From Schleiferilactobacillus shenzhenensis LY-73 (GTDB taxonomy: Bacteria; Bacillota; Bacilli; Lactobacillales; Lactobacillaceae): 64,000 nt of DNA. Within the stretch, counting starts at the first letter, position 1; every line of letters begins with the position of its first letter. The position numbers were made by a program, and so were the translations under genes. The stretch spans positions 55,601 to 119,600 of the forward strand of contig NZ_KI271587.1 in the NCBI RefSeq assembly GCF_000469325.1, read 5' to 3'. Under the pieces are notes generated by a model that saw only the letters and a list, made by a program, of their open reading frames with translations, made no database searches and had not been told where the DNA came from. Positions 9,223 to 60,262 of the stretch are shown piece by piece.

Positions 9223-9355
9223 GCTCTAGCCAAAACGGGCTCCGGCCGACAGCGGCACACGGTCTGAGGACCTTAAGCCACAAATCCCAAGTGCGGGGAT
9301 TTCCGGCTTAGGGCCCCTTAGCCCAGGCGGCCTAACCGCTCAGCGCCGCCCTCTA
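9223..9355. repeat. Structured intergenic repeat, copy A
   Basis: Copy A of a dispersed element also found at 14880-15018 and 60044-60262. It shares the core GTCTGAGGACC, the hairpin CCTTAAGCC (9271-9279) with GGCTTAGGG (9305-9313), the inner stem AAATCCC (9282-9288) with GGGATTT (9296-9302) and loop AAGTGC, then CCCAGGCGGCCTAACCGCT. AGCGG (9251-9255) can pair with CCGCT (9336-9340). It lies between the divergent nagB and coiled-coil genes. No reading frame is conserved. The rest of this 420-base gap holds only the two promoters. Confidence 0.75.
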
Positions 9356-14807: not shown

Positions 14808-14855
14808 CCTTACCTAGCTTACTGATCGCAGCGTAAAAGGCTGCATAAGAAACGG

Positions 14856-15018
14856 GTGGCGTCTAATCGCCCGCCTGCGCCCTCTGATATAAACAGGCTC
14901 TGGCGGGCAGGCCACCCTGGTCTGAGGACCTTAAGCCATCACTCCCAAATGCAGGGATTGACGGCTTAAGGCCACTCCGCCCAGGCGGCCTAATCGCCCG
15001 CCTGCGCCCTCTGATATA
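14856..15018. repeat. Structured intergenic repeat, copy B, with a partial second copy
   Basis: The full copy occupies 14880-15018. Stems: GGCGGGC (14902-14908) with GCCCGCC (14996-15002), AGGCC (14909-14913) with GGCCT (14987-14991), CCTTAAGCC (14929-14937) with GGCTTAAGG (14963-14971). The 29 bases that end it (14990-15018) occur identically at 14863-14891, so the 3' end of another copy lies directly upstream in tandem. It sits between the 3' ends of the TPM gene and the RpiR gene. The rest of 14569-15250 holds terminators and no gene that I can see. Confidence 0.75.
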
Positions 15019-15020
15019 CA

Positions 15021-15062
15021 AAAACGAGCACCGCTTCCTCCCCTGGAAACGGTGCTCGTTTT
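15021..15062. terminator. Bidirectional terminator
   Basis: AAAACGAGCACCG (15021-15033) pairs perfectly with CGGTGCTCGTTTT (15050-15062). It could end the minus-strand RpiR transcript about 190 bases past its stop, or plus-strand readthrough of repeat B. Confidence 0.75.
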
Positions 15063-59959: not shown

Positions 59960-60043
59960 CTCACTCAGCCTCCTTCGAAGTTGCGGTCATCTTAGACGCA
60001 TTGGGAGAGAAAGGCAAAGGATATGCTTGGCGGGGAGTGGGTG

Positions 60044-60132
60044 CCTCCGTAAACGGACTCCGGCCGACAGCCCCACACAGTCTAAGGACCCCAACAGCAA
60101 AAGCCCAAGTACGGGGCTGACCTCCTTGGCTA
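60044..60132. repeat. Structured intergenic repeat, partial copy C'
   Basis: Begins like the other copies (CCTCCGTAAACGGACTCCGGCC) but in pieces: CCTCCG at 60044-60049 and GTCTAAGGACC, then AGCCC-AAGTAC-GGGGCT, and stops after that apical hairpin. The 3' half is missing. It is joined directly to copy C in the same orientation. Confidence 0.65.
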
Positions 60133-60262
60133 CCTCTGGAAACGAGCTCCGCCGAGCAGGCCACCACAGTCTAAGGACCCTAACACCAAAAGCCCAAGTG
60201 CGGGGCTTTCGGTGTTAGGGCCACTTAGCCTGGGTGGCCTAACCGCTCGGCTCCGCTCTCTA
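60133..60262. repeat. Structured intergenic repeat, copy C
   Basis: The best-formed copy. GCCGAGC (60151-60157) pairs with GCTCGGC (60245-60251), AGGCCACC (60158-60165) with GGTGGCCT (60233-60240), CTAAG with CTTAG, CCCTAACACC (60178-60187) with GGTGTTAGGG (60211-60220), and AAAGCCC with GGGCTTT around AAGTGC. Several pairs differ from copies A and B while staying complementary. It lies between the GT2 start and the csbD end, so it is not a leader of any one gene class. Confidence 0.75.

Follow-up and report, generated by a model that had tools for sequence, protein, structure and literature searches.

Enterobacterial ERIC sequences, or intergenic repeat units (RU-1, 127 bp), lie scattered between genes in copy numbers that depend on the species, and they can be co-transcribed (PMC2759123, PMC2267715). 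In Streptococcus pneumoniae the BOX and RUP elements are small modular hairpins that form expandable arrays, are enriched at gene ends and are probably both parasitic and non-autonomous (PMC3049150). A 2008 stem-loop survey lists Efa-1 of Enterococcus faecalis, a 163-bp double hairpin. Here we describe an element found in a window of 64,000 nucleotides from Schleiferilactobacillus shenzhenensis LY-73, the window being the whole stretch of DNA that was analysed. It apparently represents an undescribed family of short interspersed palindromic repeats, ERIC-, BOX- or REP-like and non-autonomous, which we set apart from BOX and RUP by their descriptions. An earlier note on this DNA, made from the letters alone, had read it as a dispersed structured element that was no conventional riboswitch and could be a MITE-like repeat, a transcribed small RNA or a DNA-structure element, and had recognized no named family in it. 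A dispersed structured element of the MITE or DNA-structure kind, without riboswitch character or a named family, was borne out. Rfam, searched with the window and 25 loci, gave no match at the gathering score, permissive settings adding chance hits to human miRNA models only, and a literature search with little reach into subscription journals found no description of the element and no lactobacillus family like it.

The window contains three full-length copies, all on the plus strand, whose limits were set by a covariance model (R1) built from 78 copies. Copy A (9233-9354, 122 nt) scored 85.6 bits over model positions 1-121 and copy B (14891-15012) scored 103.8 bits, while copy C (60140-60261) is the best example in the window at 127.5 bits (E 8e-40, a rough value since the model was given a short calibration). 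These are the three sites at which the earlier note had placed the element; the second stem that it quoted is present in A, B and C, and its outer stems for B (GGCGGGC/GCCCGCC) and C (GCCGAGC/GCTCGGC) are both there and paired. The outer 7-bp stem of copy A is unpaired (GGCCGAC/GCTCAGC), and from its sequence this copy looks like a mosaic of two subtypes. Approximately 7 nt lie between the 3' end of copy B and the A-run of a bidirectional terminator-like hairpin, and an inverted repeat (15021-15062) adjoins the copy; an A-run and a hairpin also adjoin the 3' end of copy C. Either strand of copy C folds into one long hairpin, with folding z-scores for the two strands of -9.9 and -10.8 as RNA and of -8.8 and -10.8 as DNA.

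Two remnants in the window, both on the plus strand, are absent from the earlier note. A collapsed copy of 36 nt (14850-14885; R1 match with a similarly rough E of 0.0036) has its hairpin deleted and both ends retained (AAACGGGTGGCG..CGCCCTCT), and together with the 3' end of copy B it makes a 29-nt direct repeat. Immediately upstream of copy C lies a 3'-truncated unit (60051-60139), comprised of the 5' arm and apical hairpin followed by a pyrimidine-rich spacer, that forms an 81-nt direct repeat with copy C at 80% identity. The units at site C were inserted together with a 5' tail (CGGGGAGTGGGTGCCTCCGT, 60031-60050, plus strand), which is missing from the aligned empty site of congener G001, where gatatgcttgg runs directly into tacaaaata.

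The full element, AAACGGGC...GCCCTCT, is 118-123 nt long and forms a single long imperfect hairpin. On the plus strand its ends are fixed, with AAAC at the 5' end and TCT at the 3' end, and a pyrimidine-rich tail precedes AAAC. The outermost stem, located just inside AAAC, has 4 bp (GGGC/GCCC on the plus strand) and is followed by a 3x3 mismatch loop that reads TNC/TNC on the plus strand and GNA/GNA on the minus strand. Inside this loop is a 7-bp stem of free sequence. A conserved bulge places CAG opposite CTAACC, with CTAA kept in 123 of 149 elements, and the long inner stem, also free in sequence and interrupted by minor loops, is topped by a small apical hairpin (CCYAANNNCGGG). Among copies from the element's own genus, 97% of the outer 11 pairs are Watson-Crick, and a single position can show as many as 4 pair types. 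The ends and the loop are common to subfamilies with unrelated inner stems, and the architecture is conserved while the stem sequence is free. In arrays the upstream units often stop just past the apical hairpin, with loss of the 3' arm, and are followed by the pyrimidine-rich tail.

This anatomy works like that of ERIC in being one long imperfect intergenic hairpin of ~120-127 nt, without making the element a member of that family. Blastn detected no match in 5,426 E. coli genomes (20,395 records) at E 1e-3. In contrast to ERIC, the stems here covary freely while the ends, mismatch loops and bulge are fixed, truncated units build up arrays, and the hosts belong to another phylum. BOX and RUP are likewise small interspersed hairpins in Lactobacillales; however, BOX as described is nearly confined to mitis-group streptococci and S. 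suis, whereas the present element is found in at least six families. The resemblance to REP and BIMEs lies in palindromic units arranged in mosaic arrays, here joined with a second hairpin family (family B, described below). REP units are far shorter, at ~20-40 nt with a conserved tetranucleotide beside the hairpin, a description that these 118-123 nt units do not fit, and the RAYT transposase of REP is missing from genomes full of the element. MITEs are also short, non-coding, repeated, hairpin-forming and presumably moved in trans, but no consistent target duplication accompanies this element (164 elements), its ends do not look like long terminal inverted repeats of any described insertion sequence, and it is not known to have an autonomous partner. 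We rejected integron attC sites on anatomy, given that the conserved CTAAC is an internal bulge and there are no cassettes, and likewise CRISPR, given that there are no uniform spacers. What is unusual about the family is its order-wide structural conservation, its free stems and its visible arm-to-arm rewriting.

A BLAST search with copy C against its own genome returned 67 matches, the best after self at 1.3e-49, and reading of the loci yielded at least 46 distinct full-length copies in addition to many truncated units and several collapsed ones. The further genomic copies on which the earlier reading depended thus exist. These counts are lower bounds because the runs of N in this genome, which often occur at arrays of the element or of family B, are probably assembly gaps caused by the repeats. 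In three Schleiferilactobacillus genomes we counted 59, 17 and 67 occurrences of the end motif AAACGGGCTNCG, as compared with 0-1 of the reversed control. Since these ends are common to congeners that show no BLAST likeness, the ends have been kept and the stems replaced. BLAST with a window copy against 60 relatives, plasmids and phages gave no match, a blank outside the own genome that is explained by divergence of the stems, and relatives were detected solely with the end pattern and the covariance model.

Scanning the own genome and other Lactobacillaceae with the covariance model, a check that had been proposed at the outset, turned up many copies. Matches were obtained in 131 of 401 Lactobacillaceae genomes, covering 20 of 40 genera, with no match in the other 270 at the threshold used. 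Copy number ranges from none to more than 140 between species of this one family, and three genomes of a single genus (g12), each with one main contig, carry at least 139-144 copies apiece (150 candidates scored). Genera with the element include Schleiferilactobacillus, Lentilactobacillus (with very many copies in L. kisonensis), Secundilactobacillus, Levilactobacillus and Paucilactobacillus. Plasmid copies are present in L. plantarum, L. paracasei, L. rhamnosus and P. acidilactici, and none of the phages searched carries the element. In an order-wide draw the covariance model also detected it in five further families. In the 13 stretches that we read from them, some of which are tandem arrays, CAG and CTAA are preserved along with the mismatch loops, and the units measure close to 120 nt; hence these are not generic hairpins. 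A pattern match in Xylophilus, which had no covariance model match, was treated as chance. Among the non-coding repeats of lactic acid bacteria, the element probably ranks with the most abundant.

We compared the window sites with their orthologous gaps in two congeners. Both are empty at site C. Site A is empty in G001 and holds a collapsed element in S. perolens (G002), while site B is empty in G001 and in S. perolens holds a different subtype beside another terminator. The congeners that supply these empty sites are 75-80% identical, and among strains no pair was found in which exactly the same site is filled in one and empty in the other. The L. plantarum plasmids H2 and pMF1298-10 were rejected as such a pair because their shared flank stops near the element and the backbones differ beyond it. 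At several orthologous sites, two or three species carry elements of different subtypes, which identifies these sites as hot spots. Within a PTS operon, the gap between the IIB and IIC genes carries the element in two L. paracasei plasmids and one P. inopinatus plasmid; in L. plantarum the element at this gap is collapsed to 12 bases, and in P. acidilactici it is missing.

The CCCTCT end lies no more than a few bases from an opposite-strand intrinsic terminator or from a promoter -35 region, the latter recognized by eye, and it always faces the neighboring feature. Across 164 elements there was no consistent target duplication: exact duplications of 2-3 nt were near expectation, and a slight excess of 4-6 nt duplications (1-4 of the 164 elements) is probably due to tandem arrays. 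The closed genome G074 showed no clear replication-strand bias (42 vs 33, counted by hand with the origin assumed at base 1). On four L. plantarum plasmids the element starts at the edge of a shared block with a YafQ/RelB toxin-antitoxin pair (L202:1140-1625), which is found at ~99% identity on more than 100 lactobacillus plasmids; the element at this edge may mark a modular plasmid boundary.

Across the aligned copies 87.9% of cells pair, and 651 cells are changed on both sides as compared with 233 +/- 12 in shuffles. The covariation score of 0.477, which is not a probability, compares with 0.148 +/- 0.006 after shuffling and at most 0.161 with the partner slid, a very large effect. The earlier note had taken compensating changes as the mark of selected structure, and named significant covariation as a test of this. 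The covariation half of that claim is strongly supported by the two-sided changes, whereas the step from compensation to selection is not supported, given the mispairs and an overwritten arm. RNA selection acting on one strand would be expected to leave surviving mispairs that are mainly G-U on that strand. The residual mispairs on the plus strand are 16 G-T and 21 A-C (p 0.51; 1639 pair cells from 149 elements), so neither strand is favored as RNA, and the strand-specific G-U tolerance expected of a functional structured RNA is not seen.

The overwritten arm comes from two L. paracasei plasmids, p1 (L209) and pWX3 (L205), that are 96% identical at one locus. The pWX3 unit has the usual imperfect arms, in which the longest perfect inverted tract is 9 nt, while in the p1 unit the 3' arm has been turned into an exact reverse complement of the 5' arm over a 28-nt tract. 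There are three units in pWX3 and one in p1, with identical outer boundaries. To judge from the two sequences, the p1 arm is a product of hairpin-templated (quasipalindrome) correction, meaning that DNA template switching yields compensated changes without RNA selection. In 6 of the 149 elements the 3x3 loop has also become fully paired, the conversion having gone either way (TCC/GGA, GGA/TCC and GAA/TTC). Compensated changes are thus, at least in part, the work of the DNA copying machinery and, because arm-to-arm rewriting is seen, compensation is not by itself proof of a selected RNA. An RNA reading is possible for the transcribed copies but is not needed. Rematching by template switching has been argued generally for RNA hairpins (PMC8794818), and quasipalindrome template-switch mutation has been tested in E. 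coli (PMC7202029). In that mutation, as here, arm-to-arm copying restores perfect pairing; here, however, it acts on a mobile repeat family whose conserved mismatches persist against correction. We infer that selection, or else a recognition step, is needed to explain the conserved mismatches and ends, which survive in most copies despite correction. Self-primed snap-back synthesis alone was rejected as the source of the 3' arm since the conserved mismatches TNC/TNC and CAG/CTAACC are not templated.

A search for Y1_Tnp (RAYT) was positive in 5 control genomes and negative in 13 of 14 tested element-bearing genomes (all three Schleiferilactobacillus and 10 of 11 others), including G074, G271 and G255, each of which has at least 139 copies. 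The exception is a Lactobacillaceae genome of genus g21 (G185) with two Y1_Tnp genes (C4:50062-50424 and C3:182634-182996). RVT_1 was not found in 10 of the 14 genomes (S. perolens and 9 of the 11 others, G074, G271 and G255 among them). Single reverse transcriptase genes are present in the own genome (G000; a 474-aa frame, L106:1501-2121) and in G001 (a 325-aa frame, L107:1501-2064); by size they are of unrelated types, and they are not common to all element-bearing species. So RAYT is not a general mover, and nor is a reverse transcriptase. The element would be moved either by an enzyme acting in trans or else by ectopic exchange.

We believe that the copies probably constitute a single, ancient family of mobile palindromes, short, non-coding and non-autonomous, that spans Lactobacillales and acts as DNA hairpins, a reading that takes in the observed range, covariation, arm-to-arm copying, presence and absence at orthologous sites, and arrays of the family. 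On this reading a copy enters an intergenic gap so that its CCCTCT end abuts a promoter or an intrinsic terminator, and copies accumulate in arrays whose upstream units lack the 3' arm. The arms are free in sequence provided that they match: on replication of the DNA hairpin a template switch would rewrite one arm from the other, restoring the match at least partly. The conserved mismatches and ends would probably be recognized by an enzyme acting in trans, and structure rather than stem sequence would be what lets the element multiply. Copies within operons would fold in the mRNA and may alter its stability as a secondary effect. We infer mobilization in trans, with hairpin DNA as the likely substrate and the conserved mismatches as recognition features. 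Only tentatively do we propose the most specific form, an order-wide mobile DNA hairpin that is recognized by shape alone (ends, GNA/GNA loops and bulge), has its stems rematched by template switching and is moved by an enzyme other than a Y1 transposase or a reverse transcriptase.

A structured RNA, either a small RNA or a regulator embedded in mRNA, in which selection on the transcript maintains the pairing, would account for the very strong covariation. Both strands fold stably, the minus strand more so (-87.1 vs -77.3 kcal/mol) and with 3x3 GNA/GNA loops, a stabilizing motif, and some copies are located within operons as at PTS IIB-IIC. We nevertheless regard this as unlikely: the mispairs reveal no G-U excess, many of the copies near promoters and beyond terminators are probably untranscribed from the nearest gene, copy number differs from none to >140 between species of one family, and arm rewriting accounts for the compensated changes. 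It is still less probable that the element is a DNA structure serving the host in chromosome organization, protein docking or transcription insulation and spread through its usefulness, as 270 of the 401 Lactobacillaceae genomes lack it at the threshold applied, its sites are species-specific, collapsed and truncated copies are common, and copies occur on plasmids. Such a role does fit the siting of copies beside promoters and terminators, their CCCTCT end always turned to the neighboring feature, as well as the order-wide conservation of architecture, but a like pattern in pneumococcal BOX and RUP has been read as parasitic (PMC3049150).

Ectopic exchange, homologous or microhomology-mediated and combined with array slippage, would dispense with a dedicated enzyme. 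Arrays mix different subtypes, units are gained or lost between the sister plasmids pWX3 and p1 with outer boundaries fixed, copy A is a mosaic, and orthologous hot spots hold different subtypes in different species, all of which is in keeping with exchange. Yet where a single copy is new at a site that is empty in the congeners, a first insertion is required, and the ends are constant to the base while the stems are free, making exchange alone a rather unlikely account. The intergenic hairpins and BIME-like mosaic arrays also recall a REP/BIME-type element moved by RAYT, and a SINE-like element copied by a reverse transcriptase would explain why 3'-truncated units (5'-truncated on the minus strand) stand upstream of a full unit, as reverse transcription leaves them, with terminator-adjacent sites reminiscent of group IIC introns. 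Both of these movers are largely refuted and, in our estimate, highly improbable, as Y1_Tnp is missing from the three Schleiferilactobacillus and from G074, G271 and G255 with controls positive, and RVT_1 from S. perolens and the latter three genomes.

Read as a mobile DNA palindrome, the element offers a large natural experiment on the origin of compensated base changes. Covariation is routinely taken as proof of functional RNA, and here it is at least partly a product of DNA template switching. The family also poses the question of what moves a hairpin whose stem sequence is indifferent. It is widespread, including in close kin of probiotic species, and may tune adjacent genes; on the practical side, screens for non-coding RNA, genome assembly and rep-PCR in lactic acid bacteria are liable to be confused by it.

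Family B, the second dispersed structured repeat, is ~180-200 nt in length and has a branched head on a long stem that contains GGA/GGA loops, following the pattern GTGCCAATGC-GGA-...CGTTCCAGCCCC...GCATTGGCAC. It has no match in Rfam and was seen in three Schleiferilactobacillus species (L103, L071, L072, L091, L010, L066 and L077:2583-2863), where stretches of 260-280 nt fold with energies of about -130 to -155 kcal/mol. Its sequence varies while pairing is kept. Family B often lies immediately upstream of arrays of the element and in composites runs in the opposite sense, so that these arrays are mosaics like BIMEs.
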